Shown here piece by piece: positions 2,990 to 22,999 of a stretch of 25,610 bases of DNA (positions are counted from its first letter, which is position 1; every line of letters starts with the position of its first letter). This stretch comes from a virus. The stretch spans positions 1 through 25,610 of the IMG/VR virus record IMGVR_UViG_3300022413_000036; one strand, 5' to 3'. Made by a program: the position numbers and the translations under genes. The notes below the pieces were generated by a model. It did not search any database. It was given only the letters and a program-made list of their open reading frames with translations, and was not told the DNA's origin.

Positions 2990-4436
2990 GGTCGGCTCCG
3001 TTGCTGATTGTTTCGGTAAGCGCCTTGTGGATCCGCTCGAAAACCGGCTCCCAGGCACAATCGGGATCCTGACGGAAAAGGCGGACGTTGTCACCATACC
3101 AAAGCATGTGGTCCGCCATGGGGTTCCCGTCGACCTCCTTCATGTAGCGCCAGCTGCAGCGATGGGGCAGCGGGATCCAGCACGCCTGACCGATCGATCC
3201 ACACTGGTGAACCATGGTTTGATCGACGGTGATGACCAGATCCATCTGCGCGGCAAGCGATGTCAGGGCGTCGAAGTTGTCGACCACCTCCTGCCAGTGA
3301 TGGACGCCCTTGATGCCGGCATCGGCCAGCTGCTCGGCGGCATCTCCCCGATAGTGGACCGAGAAGAACTCGACCTCGGGGAAGGCCTCGACCAGGGCCT
3401 TGAAGTGGTCCATGTCAGGGGTCCTGTAGTGGCTGTGGGTCGAAACGATCCCGCCCTCCCAGGCAATGCCGACGCGGAACTTGCCCTCGGCAGCGTGTGC
3501 CACACGGCGCGCCAGGGCGGTGTCGGTGGCCGGGTTGGTCTTCAGGTAGGGCTTGAACCCACCATCGCGGTGGCGCGGGAAGTCTTCCCATCGGGTGCGA
3601 AAGAGGAGCTGCAGATCGCCGATGGAGATCTTGGCATCGATCTTGCCGTGGTCGTAGATCCACTTGCTCTCCTTGAACTTCCTGGTGCCGTAGCAGGCCT
3701 CCAGATCGAACGACCGCGAAAAGAGGCCCTGCAGTCGCGGGTGACAGTCGAGGATCAAATTGTCGCAATGGCTGCGGGCTTCGTTGATAGCCTCGGCGAA
3801 GAGCAGCTCATCGCCTTGGCCTTGCTCGCCGTAGACCACCAGCCGGTGGACGTGGCTGCCATCCCAGGGCGGCGCATCGAACTGCTTGTTGGGGCGCACG
3901 CCCGACCTGAACCCTACCTTATGCTCGGTCCAGCCCTCCAGCAGCCGCCCCTGCTCCAGGAGACAGAGGCAAAGGTTCCAGCCGCCTTGCGGATGGTCGG
4001 GCTTGGCCTTAAGGCACTTTCGCGCCCAGGCCTCACCCTCCTCCGGGCGCGCGGCGTTGATGCAGGCACTGGCAAGGTTGTTGTAGACATCCGCGTCGAT
4101 GCGGCCATGGGCCTCCATCAGCTCCGCCGCCTTCAGCCATATCTCCTCTGCCCTTTCGTCCATGCCGATGCCACGGAAGCAGTTGCCCATGTTGTTCAGC
4201 GGCTCGTGGGCCTCGGGCTGCAGGTCGGCGGCCTGTGCCAGGATGGGCAGGGCCGCGCCGAAGTGGCGCTCACCGAACAGCAGGGTGCCGTACAGGAAGG
4301 ACGCCTGGGCATTTCCGGGGTCCTGGTTCAAGGCCTCGCCCCACCTGCTGTGGGCCAAGGTGCGATCATCGGCTTGCCACGCGGCTTGGCCATCGGCCAA
4401 CAGGCGGTTGATACGCTTCTTTTTGCGGGGGTTCAT
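2898..4436 (-). CDS. TPR-repeat glycosyltransferase (GT9/SPINDLY-like)
   Basis: 512 aa. The N-terminal third (about residues 10-180) is made of tetratricopeptide-like helical repeats: QAAWQADDRTLAHSRWGEAL, then PGNAQASFLYGTLLF, EAHEPLNNMGNCFRGIGM, and VYNNLASACINAARPEEGEA. The C-terminal part has the GT-B features seen in TPR-glycosyltransferases: VVYGEQGQGDELLFA (about 200), RVGIAWEGG (about 320), and DLVITVDQTMVHQCGSIGQ with a following SWRY (about 415-450). The TPRs probably hold a protein acceptor. ATG 4436 is preceded by GAGGAGCC; an upstream in-frame ATG at 4460 lacks this. The C-terminal 30 residues overlap the methyltransferase in another frame and look unlike the family, so a read-through or frameshift is possible. 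It lies just after the capsid and minor structural genes. Confidence 0.8.
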   Translation of the reverse strand: MNPRKKKRINRLLADGQAAWQADDRTLAHSRWGEALNQDPGNAQASFLYGTLLFGERHFGAALPILAQAADLQPEAHEPLNNMGNCFRGIGMDERAEEIWLKAAELMEAHGRIDADVYNNLASACINAARPEEGEAWARKCLKAKPDHPQGGWNLCLCLLEQGRLLEGWTEHKVGFRSGVRPNKQFDAPPWDGSHVHRLVVYGEQGQGDELLFAEAINEARSHCDNLILDCHPRLQGLFSRSFDLEACYGTRKFKESKWIYDHGKIDAKISIGDLQLLFRTRWEDFPRHRDGGFKPYLKTNPATDTALARRVAHAAEGKFRVGIAWEGGIVSTHSHYRTPDMDHFKALVEAFPEVEFFSVHYRGDAAEQLADAGIKGVHHWQEVVDNFDALTSLAAQMDLVITVDQTMVHQCGSIGQACWIPLPHRCSWRYMKEVDGNPMADHMLWYGDNVRLFRQDPDCAWEPVFERIHKALTETISNGADRDRKNSPHQPGRLHIPGLSGDADRVPRAAE

Positions 4437-18600: not shown

Positions 18601-19332
18601 TCAAATTGCCATGCCGGCGGAGCTGGATTGCTCGCCGTGGAACTTCACTTCATTGCGTGTCCAGGTTCGCCACGCTGCGTCCCAGTCCTTGTATTTTTTG
18701 CCGGTCTTGAGGTGGTAGTCCTGGAAGTCCTCGAACCCATCGGCTGCTGTCTTCCAGGCGACGTGGTCTGACCAGTATTTGGCACGGTCGTCGGTGAGGC
18801 CAAAATCGAGAGAGAGGGGGGCGGCCCGTTTTTCTTTTGGCCCCTCTTTTTTTAGGTTAAACTCTATAGAGCGATGGGGTACCCGATCGGGTAGGGGATC
18901 GGGTACCTGATCGGGTACCTGATCGGGGGGGCGATCATCTTCCTTTAGATCCAATGGTTTGACCGCTGTCGGTTTTTTGCCCTTTTTCTTCTTTTCTCGC
19001 AGCTCTTTCCAGCGGGTGTCATTGCCCCGCGCGCCGTCCTCGGAGCGGTTTTGCCGGTAGATAAAGTGCTTCATCAGGTACCGATCGGCGTGCTTCTGCA
19101 GGTAGCCCTTGGGGGTCTTTTTGAAGGCTGGCTCCAGGTCTTCCCAGACACCAAACCAGTCCTCTGGATCGACCCTGGCGAGCCTCCTGATGGCATCGAG
19201 AGACAGAGGCAGGAGGGCGTTCTCGACGTCGTAGATATGCACCAGCAGGGTGATGTAGGCGCCGAGCGCCAAGGGGCTCATGTGCGCCGTGTCCCGCTCC
19301 CAGCTGGTGATAGAAAAAGGGAAGGTTTTCAT
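18601..19332 (-). CDS. DUF1376-type replication organiser-like protein
   Basis: 243 aa. The N-terminal 90 residues (SITSWERDTAHMSPLALGAY, then LLVHIYDVENALLPLSLDAI) match DUF1376, a winged-helix-like domain found in phage and prophage proteins near replication genes that are thought to recognise the origin or load helicase. A linker contains a tandem four-residue repeat (PDQV, PDQV, PDPL, PDRV), and the C-terminus has WDAAWRTWTRNEV, seen in primosome-type DnaT/replication proteins. It overlaps its neighbour as ATGA and lies two genes after the primase-helicase. The origin-binding role is inference from family context. Confidence 0.75.
   Translation of the reverse strand: MKTFPFSITSWERDTAHMSPLALGAYITLLVHIYDVENALLPLSLDAIRRLARVDPEDWFGVWEDLEPAFKKTPKGYLQKHADRYLMKHFIYRQNRSEDGARGNDTRWKELREKKKKGKKPTAVKPLDLKEDDRPPDQVPDQVPDPLPDRVPHRSIEFNLKKEGPKEKRAAPLSLDFGLTDDRAKYWSDHVAWKTAADGFEDFQDYHLKTGKKYKDWDAAWRTWTRNEVKFHGEQSSSAGMAI
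18873..18932. repeat. Five tandem 12-bp units inside the DUF1376 gene
   Basis: Unit GATCGGGTACCT occurs exactly twice (18897-18908, 18909-18920). Degenerate copies precede at 18873 and 18885 and follow at 18921. They encode the Pro-Asp-rich linker repeat. Because phage origins often lie inside the initiator gene as iterons, the array is also a candidate origin-binding site. Confidence 0.75.
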
Positions 19333-19718
19333 TGCGCCGCCTCCGCCGCCCTAGCCGCCAGCCGCGCACGCTCCTTGTCATCGTCCTCGCGCAGGCGGAC
19401 CAGGAAATCGTGCTCCTGCTTGGCTATCTTTTTGCAGTCAGGGCAGCCCGGCACGCGGCGCACGCCCCCGCCGAGCCCTGTGTCACGGTGGATCTGCAGA
19501 TGGTGCTGTTCCCAGAGGGTGTAGGGGGTCTTATCACAATAAATCGCCCCGGTCTTGTCACCCACCGGACAGCCCCGGCAGATGTCCTCGATGTAGACTT
19601 GGCACAGGGCGCAGTTGGCCTGCCCCTTGTCTACACCATCTCTCTTCCAAATCCGGTGCCACTTTCTGATTGATTTGTCCAAGGCCGCGAGGGCCTCGTC
19701 GTTCATGAGCTTGGTCAT
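19329..19718 (-). CDS. Cys-rich zinc-binding protein, unknown
   Basis: 129 aa. Cysteine pairs C36-x2-C39 (CALC), C47-x2-C50 (CRGC, followed by PVG), and C92-x2-C95 (CPDC), plus C61, could bind two zinc ions. The ends are helical and the C-terminus is highly charged. Both ends overlap neighbours as ATGA, so it is in the replication operon. The CxxC-PVG segment is one I have seen in uncharacterised phage proteins. Function unknown. Confidence 0.75.
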   Translation of the reverse strand: MTKLMNDEALAALDKSIRKWHRIWKRDGVDKGQANCALCQVYIEDICRGCPVGDKTGAIYCDKTPYTLWEQHHLQIHRDTGLGGGVRRVPGCPDCKKIAKQEHDFLVRLREDDDKERARLAARAAEAAQ

Positions 19719-21109
19719 ATCATTGGCTCCATATCATCGGGTTCACGGTAACGGTGGGCGGCGCTGTCGTAGTAGATCGAAACCTCACCCGGCACACCTA
19801 TCTGGTCGTGGTACCGGGTCTTTTTGACCGCGATCTTGTTCATCTCGGTGTTGGGTTCCCTCGACACCACAATGCCGACATCCGCCTTGTTCGCCCATGC
19901 CGCGCTGTCGCTTATGTGATACAGGCCCAGGTGCTTGGCGTCATCCTTTCCGAGCTTGGTCGGGTGTGCCACGACGATCAAGGCCACGTTGAGCCGGCGG
20001 GCCGCGAGACGCAGCTCCTTGATCGCGATGTTGACGTACTCCGTCATGGGCATGCCCTGGGGCTTGTCGTGGTCGAGTTCGTTCCAGGGATCGATCACCA
20101 CCAGCTGGCAGCCGTTGCGGGCCACAGCCACGCCCATCATCTCGATCACCCAGCGCAGATCGGTCAGATCCTCGACGCCAGGGTAGAGGAAAGTGAAGTG
20201 GTCATCGATCCAAGCCAGACCCTCACGCTGGTCGTGGACCCGCCATGCCGGCTGTCCGTAAAAGTGGGACAGCAGGAAACGCTTGTGCTCGGTCTGCGGC
20301 GGCTGTTCGAAGCTCCCCATGGCGATCCGCCAGCCGTGGGTCTTGGCCAGCCGGCAGCACAGTTCATTGACGAACGTAGTCTTGCCCTGGCCGGGGATGC
20401 CGGTGACGACCACGAAGTCGCCGCGCCGGACCTTGAAGTGGGGATCGAGGCAGCGCAGGCCTGTCGTCAGTGCCTTGGGCGAGGGCAGGGGTGGCAGGTC
20501 CGACATCTTGTAGACGCCCTTGACCTCGACCCACTGTGCCCCTGTCAGGGCCTCCGTGACGCCACCCTGACCATACCACTGCAGCACGTCGTTCAAGTCC
20601 TTGGTGCCGTCCGGGTATCGCACCCACTTCACCCTGGCCCGCCCGAGGATCCTCAGCAGGTCGTTGTGCAGCATCCTGCCGGGCTCGTCGTCGTCGGTGG
20701 CCAGGATGATGGTGCGATCGGCCAGCAGGGGTCTGACCGCCTGGATGTAGTGGTAGTGGTCCTCTCCCTGGGGTGTCAGGCTGGCGCCGCCGGGGACCGA
20801 CACCGCGCAGGGCCAGCCGGCCTGGATCGCGGTGATGGCATCGACCTCGCCCTCGGTGATCACGACCGGGTGGCCGGTCAGGCTCTGGTCGAGCAGCACA
20901 TCCTGGTTCCAGAGGCACTGCTCGCCGCCCTTGTCCTGCCGAAAATCCTTGGTCGCGATCTTGCGATACTTGTGATTGACCACCTGCCCGTCTCGCAGGA
21001 ACGGGAAGACAATCTCACCATCTGAGGCCGCGACGCCAAGCCGCGATGCTATTTCCGGGTCGACCCCGCGCTGCTCCATCCATGCCAGTCCTTGGTCGCT
21101 GATCGCCAT
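19715..21109 (-). CDS. Toprim primase-helicase, T7 gp4-like, without its zinc domain
   Basis: 464 aa from ATG 21109. It has a short N-terminal domain, then Toprim motifs VVITEGEVD (E86, E88) and ILATDDDEPG (D139, D141), then a DnaB/T7-type helicase with Walker A GIPGQGKT (237-244), Walker B LVVID (336-340) and a later AHPTKLG (H382) that contacts DNA or phosphate. This enzyme unwinds DNA and makes primers at the fork. ATG 21109 has GGGAGGAG upstream. The frame remains open to 21811, but that stretch lies in other real genes. The zinc-ribbon needed for template recognition is encoded just upstream in a different frame, overlapping by 95 nt. Length without it is normal for the Toprim plus helicase part. 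Confidence 0.9.
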   Translation of the reverse strand: MAISDQGLAWMEQRGVDPEIASRLGVAASDGEIVFPFLRDGQVVNHKYRKIATKDFRQDKGGEQCLWNQDVLLDQSLTGHPVVITEGEVDAITAIQAGWPCAVSVPGGASLTPQGEDHYHYIQAVRPLLADRTIILATDDDEPGRMLHNDLLRILGRARVKWVRYPDGTKDLNDVLQWYGQGGVTEALTGAQWVEVKGVYKMSDLPPLPSPKALTTGLRCLDPHFKVRRGDFVVVTGIPGQGKTTFVNELCCRLAKTHGWRIAMGSFEQPPQTEHKRFLLSHFYGQPAWRVHDQREGLAWIDDHFTFLYPGVEDLTDLRWVIEMMGVAVARNGCQLVVIDPWNELDHDKPQGMPMTEYVNIAIKELRLAARRLNVALIVVAHPTKLGKDDAKHLGLYHISDSAAWANKADVGIVVSREPNTEMNKIAVKKTRYHDQIGVPGEVSIYYDSAAHRYREPDDMEPMI

Positions 21110-21299
21110 CACCCGCTCCTCCCTTATCTCCGCAATGCCAACAGTGCCAGACCACGCCGTCGCGGTCGATCTTGACCGACAGGCAGAGGTCTCTCTTCTT
21201 CTTCCGCTTATGGGAACAACTCGGGCAGATAGCCCGCCTTTCCCCCATCGACGTGTCCGACATCCTGATGCCGGCGTCGGCCAAGGCCTTATCCCACAT
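21015..21299 (-). CDS. Primase zinc-binding domain as a separate ORF (or frameshifted N-terminus)
   Basis: 94 aa. MWDKALADAGIRMSDTSMGE is followed by C25-x2-C28 (CPSC), a basic KRKKKRD, and C53-x2-C56 (CWHC) plus GDKGG. This is exactly the zinc ribbon that begins T7 gp4-like primases and picks the priming sequence. After GDKGG (residue about 61) the reading frame continues for some 33 Arg/Gly-rich residues that look random. The Toprim frame would be reached by a +1 shift near there. So either the domain is a separate polypeptide acting in trans, or a programmed frameshift joins the two, or there is a sequence error. Start 21299 overlaps the upstream gene by 11 nt. Confidence 0.7.
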   Translation of the reverse strand: MWDKALADAGIRMSDTSMGERRAICPSCSHKRKKKRDLCLSVKIDRDGVVWHCWHCGDKGGAGDGDQRPRTGMDGAARGRPGNSIAAWRRGLRW

Positions 21300-21965: not shown

Positions 21966-22533
21966 ACATCCTCTCTATGCTGTAGGCCTTGAGCTTGCGC
22001 CATCGCCAGTCGCCGGGCCAGGACATCTTACTCACCGGCCCTGGCAACATCTGGTTCGCGCCGACCGCGTTGTTGTCCATCACCCACCAGCCGCGATGCT
22101 CGTCAGACAGCCTGACCAGCAGCACCATGTGCCGGCGGGTGGGCAGCTGCACGATGGCCAGCCGCATCGCGCCCCAAGGGCAGCCGGCAGCGACCAGGGC
22201 CTCGGCATAGGCCACGCAATAGTCGTCGCAGTCGCCCAGGGAGATCCATCGCCCACGGTCCAGATCCAGGATAGATCGGACCCACTTGCGCCGCAGGACG
22301 CCCCAGCGGTCCTCGCCCGGCTTGTCCGGGGTGTACCTGATCTGGGTGGCCACCCTGCGCTGGATGTCACCGAGCTGCAGGGCCGTGCCGTTATACCATA
22401 CCTCCTCGACGCCCTCGCCGGCCAGGAGCCGGAACAGAGGCTTGCGCCAGATCAGCCCGGTCATCTGGGTGGGGGGACTACACCATGGGCCGGGGATGAG
22501 CCGCCGGCCCCACTTGCTGGCAAGGAAGGCCAT
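21958..22533 (-). CDS. Transglutaminase-like cysteine protease (BTLCP family)
   Basis: 191 aa. The catalytic triad is visible: C102 in ISLGDCDDYCVAYAEAL, H135 in PTRRHMVLLVR, and D153 in GWWVMDNN. This is the papain-like BTLCP fold known from LapG-type periplasmic proteases of Proteobacteria. There is no signal peptide, so the phage version probably acts in the cytoplasm. GAGGAGG at the end of the upstream gene is 7 nt from ATG 22533. It is placed in the early operon between two nuclease-like genes, which is odd. A role in processing a host or phage protein, or as a structural amidase, is possible. Confidence 0.85.
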   Translation of the reverse strand: MAFLASKWGRRLIPGPWCSPPTQMTGLIWRKPLFRLLAGEGVEEVWYNGTALQLGDIQRRVATQIRYTPDKPGEDRWGVLRRKWVRSILDLDRGRWISLGDCDDYCVAYAEALVAAGCPWGAMRLAIVQLPTRRHMVLLVRLSDEHRGWWVMDNNAVGANQMLPGPVSKMSWPGDWRWRKLKAYSIERMYD

Positions 22534-22853
22534 CACAGCACCTCCTCAATCTCGATGCCGTGCAGCGCGAGCATCAGCCTCTTGCGCAGCCGGTAGTCCG
22601 CCCGCTTGGCGGTGGCTGGGCTCTTGACATCCTCGACCACAAGCACATCGGCCCAGGTGTGGTAGACGAAGTCTGCCGTGTACCTGCCGATAAATACCTC
22701 ATTGACGATCAGGTCCCAGCTCGGATGTACCCGCAGGCGGTTGATGCCGCCGGACTTCTCCCAGAGCTTCAGCTCGCCATAGCGTTTGGCCTCTCTCTTG
22801 CTGTCGAACTTGATGCCGTCGACCGTGGTCTTTTTGGCATTATACTTGTTCAT
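22533..22853 (-). CDS. DUF1064 family nuclease-like protein
   Basis: 106 aa. The opening NKYNAKKTTVDGIKFDSKRE and the EAKRYGELKLWEKSG that follows are diagnostic of DUF1064 (PF06356), a phage family with a restriction-endonuclease-like fold. YTADFVYH and VVEDVKSPAT (D and E/K positions) supply the probable D...ExK metal site. Members are often found with recombination and replication genes. ATG 22853 overlaps the regulator's TGA as ATGA, which fixes this start. An in-frame GTG 12 nt upstream has no ribosome binding site. Confidence 0.85.
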   Translation of the reverse strand: MNKYNAKKTTVDGIKFDSKREAKRYGELKLWEKSGGINRLRVHPSWDLIVNEVFIGRYTADFVYHTWADVLVVEDVKSPATAKRADYRLRKRLMLALHGIEIEEVL

Positions 22854-22999
22854 GCCGCGACCCACTCGGCCAGAGCCTCTCGGATCGCCTGGGACTGCGT
22901 GACCCGCTCCTTGCGGCTCTTTTTGTCGAGCGCCGCGACCAGCTCGGGGGGTGCTCGAAAGGTGAGGACCCGGCCCGGTATTTTTCTCTCTTTGTCCAT
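22850..22999 (-). CDS. Ribbon-helix-helix (CopG/Arc-like) regulator
   Basis: 49 aa, the typical size of an Arc or CopG repressor. VLTFRAPPELVAALDKKSRK (11-30) gives the beta strand and first helix, and TQSQAIREAL (34-43) the second helix of a ribbon-helix-helix. Dimers insert the strand into the major groove of palindromic operators. AGGAG lies 7 nt before the ATG. Immediately upstream is an 11-bp perfect inverted repeat overlapping both divergent promoters, the expected site for self-control. As the first gene of the leftward operon it may act as the early-late switch. Confidence 0.85.
   Translation of the reverse strand: MDKERKIPGRVLTFRAPPELVAALDKKSRKERVTQSQAIREALAEWVAA

Follow-up and report, generated by a model that had tools for sequence, protein, structure and literature searches.

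The gene 4 protein of bacteriophage T7 is made in one reading frame as a long form with an N-terminal zinc domain and as a short form, the latter starting internally at Met64. The corresponding components of bacteriophage T4, gp61 and gp41, are divided differently, with the helicase as a separate protein. According to PMC10359460, an 18-residue loop connects the zinc and Toprim domains within a single T4 chain, the zinc domain searches for the priming site and keeps hold of the 5' end of the primer, and the segment that follows the zinc-ribbon core is a helicase-interacting motif; the same paper describes a proposal that the linker between the zinc and Toprim domains acts as a measuring tape for primer length. 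Metazoan Twinkle is a Toprim-helicase polypeptide, and the animal protein is reported to have lost its primase activity. Split primases annotated as a pair of overlapping genes are already on record in actinobacteriophages; for example, the zinc and Toprim parts of the Mycobacterium phage Miramae primase (gp54 and gp53) are annotated as two DNA primase genes, and at least 80% of gp53 is present in 1,468 phage records.

The window analyzed here, a virus record of 25,610 bases, contains a primase-helicase that is cut between zinc and Toprim. On the minus strand, a zinc-ribbon ORF of 94 amino acids plus stop (positions 21015 to 21299), with the motifs CPSC (residues 25 to 28) and CWHC (residues 53 to 56), overlaps by 95 nt (21015 to 21109) an ORF of 464 amino acids (19715 to 21109) that encodes a T7 gp4-like Toprim primase domain and RecA-type helicase and lacks a zinc domain. 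The distance from 21299 to 21109 is 190 nt, or 63 codons plus 1, which puts the helicase at +1 when the zinc ORF is taken as frame 0; coordinates and frames agree with those given in the initial annotation. The strong ribosome-binding site that it had placed inside the first ORF, ahead of the ATG at 21109, corresponds to AAGGGAGGAG (21125 to 21116, minus strand), a sequence resembling a ribosome-binding site that lies just 5' of this ATG and encodes Lys-Gly-Gly in the zinc ORF. The context is that of a replication module, with a primosomal-type protein (18601 to 19332, minus strand; phrog_3992/9327 primosomal protein, E values of 6e-10 to 3e-9) and a Holliday-junction-resolvase-like protein (22533 to 22865, minus strand; phrog_190, E value of 1.7e-34). 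Based on sequence comparison, we estimate a probability of about three in four that the zinc ORF encodes a separate zinc-binding primase subunit that acts in trans and whose C-terminal tail is encoded by the same nucleotides as the beginning of the primase-helicase, in an overprinted frame.

The T7 gp4-like identity of the larger protein, originally suggested from the letters of the sequence, was upheld by database and structural comparisons. The Toprim-helicase matched phrog_239 (DNA primase/helicase) with an E value of 2.3e-69 and, by profile, the T7 gp4 chains 5ikn, 6n7i, and 1q57 with E values of 1e-31 to 2e-28; its structural model had a pLDDT of 93.7, and its top Foldseek matches were T7 gp4. 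As in the phrog_239 primase-helicases, and as in T7 gp4, a Toprim primase domain and a RecA-type helicase, hexameric in T7, share one chain. The profile match starts at gp4 residue 78, past the T7 zinc domain, and profile alignment places the start of the helicase-only product at about gp4 residue 71, near the T7 internal start. The initial comparison with the two starts of the T7 gene was apt for the position of the helicase start; it was not apt for the zinc form, which is no same-frame extension. The T7 pattern of two starts sharing one frame was not found, since the frames differ by +1; the zinc part, in contrast to that of T7, has an ORF to itself in a different frame and ends in its own selected tail. 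The Toprim residues E86, D139, and D141 were invariant in 40 helicases, and the primase site therefore looks active. Twinkle was also matched in the PDB profile and fold searches, but it differs from the protein described here, which has invariant catalytic residues in its Toprim domain and a zinc partner encoded by the adjacent gene.

Single-protein scans of viral contigs and genome contigs returned no matches, whereas alignment-based scans did find relatives. The first of these yielded the best 80 of 574 viral relatives and 37 genome loci, and the second yielded a further 80 viral rows, the best 80 of 399, many of them on contigs that had already been found. Each row was assigned to a class according to the frame in which its zinc motif lay with respect to that of the helicase. 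The 204 rows classed in all comprised 162 with the zinc motif at +1, 31 with both in the same frame, 4 at −1, and 7 without a motif; in the 111-row subset with less than 70% identity, the respective numbers were 83, 23, 4, and 1. One +1 row (L214) proved on reading to carry a fused gene whose frame is broken; its removal left 82 split rows, the window included, that are mutually less than 70% identical and come from many data sets. One further row (L082), overlooked by the first motif, was also at +1. In all 82 split rows, the zinc domain is absent from the N terminus of the helicase polypeptide and has its own ORF in a different frame, always with the +1 offset. Between the last zinc Cys and a conserved helicase Arg, the distance spanned 34 to 112 nt across the 82 rows retained and was 1 modulo 3 in 83 of 83 rows before L214 was removed; the median pairwise identity in an earlier set of 60 split rows was 44%. 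Because the frame relation recurs in 82 rows of such divergence, it is not due to chance. Among annotated phages, the best E value was obtained with Bradyrhizobium phage BDU-MI-1, the sole annotated phage record found in the split clade, which has the same split and whose unannotated zinc ORF is 46% identical over 57 amino acids to that of the window. Thus, on the question raised by the initial annotation of whether relatives keep the split, BDU-MI-1 and the nonredundant rows give a positive answer.

In a quick tree with SH-aLRT support only, the split rows were placed apart from the fused rows. Besides L214, the fused group (16 rows) held one further row that departed from the shared frame, L105, which has a −1 offset; the other side held the remaining split rows, together with L037, L189, and the zinc-less, long-branched L008. 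On this evidence, the fused relatives form a group neighboring the split clade, and a single change would explain the pattern of split and fused rows, the root of the tree being arbitrary. L037 and L189 sit at two places inside the split clade, and in neither do the two genes overlap: the zinc ORF of L037 ends in KRGW and a stop, and its helicase starts at TGATG with another offset, while the zinc ORF of L189 ends in VKRSF and an in-frame stop that is followed by a helicase ATG in the same frame. Separately, the Walker A motif of the L189 helicase is interrupted after GIPSHGK, from about position 3266, by an in-frame intein-like insert that ends in IPTHN and is followed by SSF. L008 is Pseudomonas phage vB_Pae_CF34a, whose primase-helicase is annotated as two coding sequences with the break inside the helicase; in the related L009, it is annotated as one.

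In the zinc protein family, Cys25, Pro26, Cys28, Cys53, and Cys56 were invariant (alignment of 55 members), and the four cysteines are the predicted zinc ligands of a primase-like zinc-ribbon fold. Residues 1 to 60 of the modeled protein form a well-predicted folded core (block-mean pLDDT of 89 to 94); the top Foldseek match of the zinc protein, chain 8dvf_H of the T4 primosome, had a probability of 0.95 but a weak E value of 0.15; the likeness to T4 gp61/gp41 lies in this zinc-ribbon fold. The C-terminal tail (approximately residues 65 to 94; 21018 to 21107, minus strand), which ends in SIAAWRRGLRW before the stop and is overprinted on the helicase start, was modeled with low confidence and has a short helix at residues 84 to 90. 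Matches of the zinc ORF of the window to primase families were weak (phrog_239, E value of 0.002; phrog_47, E value of 0.006), and many unrelated zinc-ribbon families match the zinc protein family equally weakly. Such matches would fit a zinc protein that is not a primase subunit at all but, say, a small regulator that binds nucleic acid and belongs to the same operon, beside a helicase that is zinc free like animal Twinkle. We consider this unlikely, since the ORF lies directly 5' of the Toprim-helicase, in the same place where fused relatives carry their zinc domain; of the 55 family members, 16 have a match to the DNA primase family phrog_47 (best E value of 2.7e-8) and 5 to phrog_239; and the Toprim acidic residues are invariant. 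A zinc subunit of the primase is favored over such a regulator.

The further zinc ribbon that the initial annotation had noted immediately before the first is indeed present, as an ORF of 57 amino acids (21462 to 21289, minus strand) that overlaps the start of the first zinc ORF by 11 nt. It weakly resembles the primase zinc domains of relatives (38% identity over 50 amino acids with that of L104; E value of 4e-6). When the 500 nt upstream were searched in 80 split rows, a C..C-C..C motif was found only in the window and in L197, and the L197 motif was dissimilar by eye. As judged by this survey, the second ORF lies outside the conserved arrangement; it may have arisen by tandem duplication of the zinc domain.

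The helicase start itself was less uniform than the frame relation. Ahead of the conserved Arg, the 60-row set offered an ATG in 46 rows, only GTG or TTG in 8, and none of these in 6; in the larger set, 5 of 82 rows had none. In 9 of 60 and in 11 of 82 rows, respectively, the helicase frame contained a stop in the interval from the last zinc Cys to the conserved Arg. An in-frame ATG was mildly enriched (46 of 60 versus 37.6 expected), a weak signal on which we do not rely. The positions of these ATGs peaked at 19 or 22 nt past the last zinc Cys (25 of 46), and the ribosome-binding energy there was −6.85 kcal/mol, compared with −5.90 kcal/mol in recoded controls, being lower in 31 of 46 rows. 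By eye, L014 and L091 have ATC and ATT, respectively, at the site of the helicase ATG of their relatives, 22 nt past the last zinc Cys codon and behind a G-rich stretch; these are candidate rare start codons.

Selection on the zinc frame within the overlap was assessed by recoding the helicases synonymously with their own codon usage and reading the zinc frame (82 rows, 5,000 simulations). No row met a stop in the zinc frame over the 15 codons that follow the conserved Arg (null mean, 34.6 rows with a stop; minimum, 20). The first stop fell at codons 15 to 22 in 58 rows (null, 11.4; maximum, 24) and at codons 18 to 22 in 47 rows (null, 5.8; maximum, 17), both windows having been picked post hoc, the narrower after a first look and the wider later; it fell beyond codon 22 in 24 rows (null, 36.0). 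The last zinc residue was aromatic in 41 rows (null, 5.3; maximum, 15) and was Trp in 33 (null, 1.1; maximum, 6). Aromatic-ending tails used TGA 32 times, TAG 5 times, and TAA 4 times (83-row set), and because all three stop codons occur, the stop and the residue, rather than one DNA motif, are what is kept. Control windows of 15 codons in the same frame, at +60, +100, +150, and +200, were stop free in 42, 43, 61, and 50 of the 82 rows; 43 of the 82 rows met a stop in the third frame before 15 codons had passed; and in 20 fused relatives there was neither stop clustering nor a Trp codon ahead of the zinc-frame stop. Given the helicase amino acids, the zinc frame is therefore open with a nonrandom end, and the fused controls are flat. 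Among the 24 rows that end beyond codon 22, a Novosphingobium-type group of six (L097, L098, L195, L199, L207, and L208) has a zinc frame that stays open for 66 to 142 codons past the Arg and has no fixed end.

Codon usage in the overlap pointed in the same direction when pairs with no row in common were compared: codons for identical residues were themselves identical in 422 of 693 cases (0.609) in the overlap versus 5,145 of 9,574 (0.537) downstream in 32 such pairs, and codon identity was higher in the overlap in 22 of the 32 (Fisher P value of 1.4e-4). Over all pairs, which are nonindependent and mostly distant, synonymous conservation was not raised (0.503 in the overlap and 0.510 downstream). 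When tail length was first compared with that in synonymous recodings, the combined signal was weak (Fisher P value of 0.012; 7 of 60 rows below 0.05), and the signal became strong once it was measured from the conserved Arg with the end position as the statistic. The test of tail composition ends each stretch at its first stop, which makes its stop count circular, and this count was not used. An internal tail Trp at a Leu-Gly pair occurred in 22 of 57 tails versus 12.7 expected, a value within the simulated range (maximum, 25) from which we claim nothing. The tail of the window ends in RW and a stop at +17 from the conserved Arg, and that of BDU-MI-1 ends in RRA and a stop at +29; taken alone, the window is unremarkable, with a P value of 0.83 for tail length against synonymous recoding. 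The case for dual coding rests on the family and not on this stretch, and on the family evidence we conclude that the zinc tail is under selection and that the overlap is a true dual-coding stretch.

Abutting genes would be expected to drift relative to each other; therefore, the constancy of the offset calls for something that maintains it, a frameshift or dual coding. A programmed +1 frameshift, which the initial annotation had listed, would yield a full-length zinc-Toprim-helicase fusion beside or instead of the two short products. It would account for the +1 offset in 82 of 82 split rows and in 10 of 10 actinobacteriophage split primases examined, for the rows without any ATG, GTG, or TTG before the conserved Arg (6 of 60 and 5 of 82), and for the annotated Toprim starts of Legacy, phiScoe54, and Nerujay, which lie inside the conserved region. 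Against this, the selected zinc tail, a product solely of translation that continues to the stop of the zinc ORF, by itself locks the +1 offset and makes a frameshift unneeded. Furthermore, the zinc frame has no stop between the last Cys and the conserved Arg in any of the 82 rows, so that a prfB-type, stop-dependent shift is impossible there; inspection by eye of the codons listed revealed no slippery site in common; and L037 and L189 have other frame relations with complete separate genes. A frameshift at the zinc stop codon was considered and dropped, since these stops are variable and the helicase frame is conserved ahead of them. We therefore regard programmed frameshifting as an improbable general explanation of the split, while a minor frameshifted fusion in some split members is possible.

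The actinobacteriophage split primases (L128 to L137), most of which overlap, differ from the present family in having a DnaG/CHC2-like zinc motif, no fused helicase, and a longer overlap. In the Mycobacterium phages, the end of the zinc tail is, by eye, seemingly dictated by the Toprim motif PLPGHE. A frameshift in actinobacteriophage split primases is possible, as is an unusual start in Legacy, phiScoe54, and Nerujay.

The zinc tail might instead be a meaningless by-product of helicase coding, the zinc ORF being an ordinary neighbor with a drifting end; the window taken alone is compatible with this, but 82 stop-free rows of 82, the fixed end, and the aromatic last residue relative to the nulls, together with the flat fused relatives, make it very improbable. 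The sequencing or assembly error that the initial annotation had allowed for, by which one gp4-like gene would have been broken, is refuted by the same split in BDU-MI-1 and 82 nonredundant rows from many data sets; breaks of that sort occur in only a few rows, namely L214, L073 (split at +1, its helicase being broken further on), and L123 (an apparent break within the helicase).

Among the options first listed, the separate trans-acting zinc protein is thus the best supported, because the zinc frame is conserved beyond the helicase start and because two relatives carry the zinc protein as a nonoverlapping gene. The split, its conservation, and the selection on the zinc frame are established by comparison of sequences across the family. 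We postulate that the T7-type primase-helicase would be made as two proteins, a small zinc-ribbon protein from its own start and a Toprim-helicase translated in the +1 frame from an internal start just past the last Cys codon. The last 30 or so zinc codons would be read again as approximately the first 30 helicase codons, and a tail with a fixed end and an aromatic last residue, kept by selection, would lock the frames at +1 with no frameshift. The zinc protein may then recognize the priming site in trans and serve the Toprim site of the helicase ring, and the short Trp-bearing helix of the tail may dock it on the ring in place of a covalent linker. Such a docking role would parallel the helicase-interacting motif described for T4.

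Among open-licence full-text papers, as judged by titles and the opening lines of abstracts, we found none that describes a phage primase-helicase with a zinc subunit acting in trans and encoded by an overlapping gene. An out-of-frame product of phage Kampy (PMC4626039) maps to genes 65 and 66, at approximately 42 kb, and was judged from that position not to be the primase. A term search of the PRFect paper (PMC10885494) found mention of neither primase nor helicase. The zinc ORF, unannotated in BDU-MI-1, is a well-supported overlapping phage gene that annotation has missed.

What the arrangement may mean for these phages can be put forward tentatively, at somewhat less than even odds: in a large phage clade, the zinc domain would be a freely exchanging trans subunit whose overprinted, Trp-ended tail docks on the helicase ring, so that primer start site and length would be set without a covalent zinc-Toprim linker and the ratio of zinc protein to helicase could be regulated. 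A natural linker-less primase-helicase would make the measuring-tape proposal for T4 (PMC10359460) directly testable. It would also represent a third way of cutting a primase-helicase, into zinc and Toprim-helicase parts, beside T7, where all are fused, and T4 and bacteria, where zinc-Toprim is separated from helicase.
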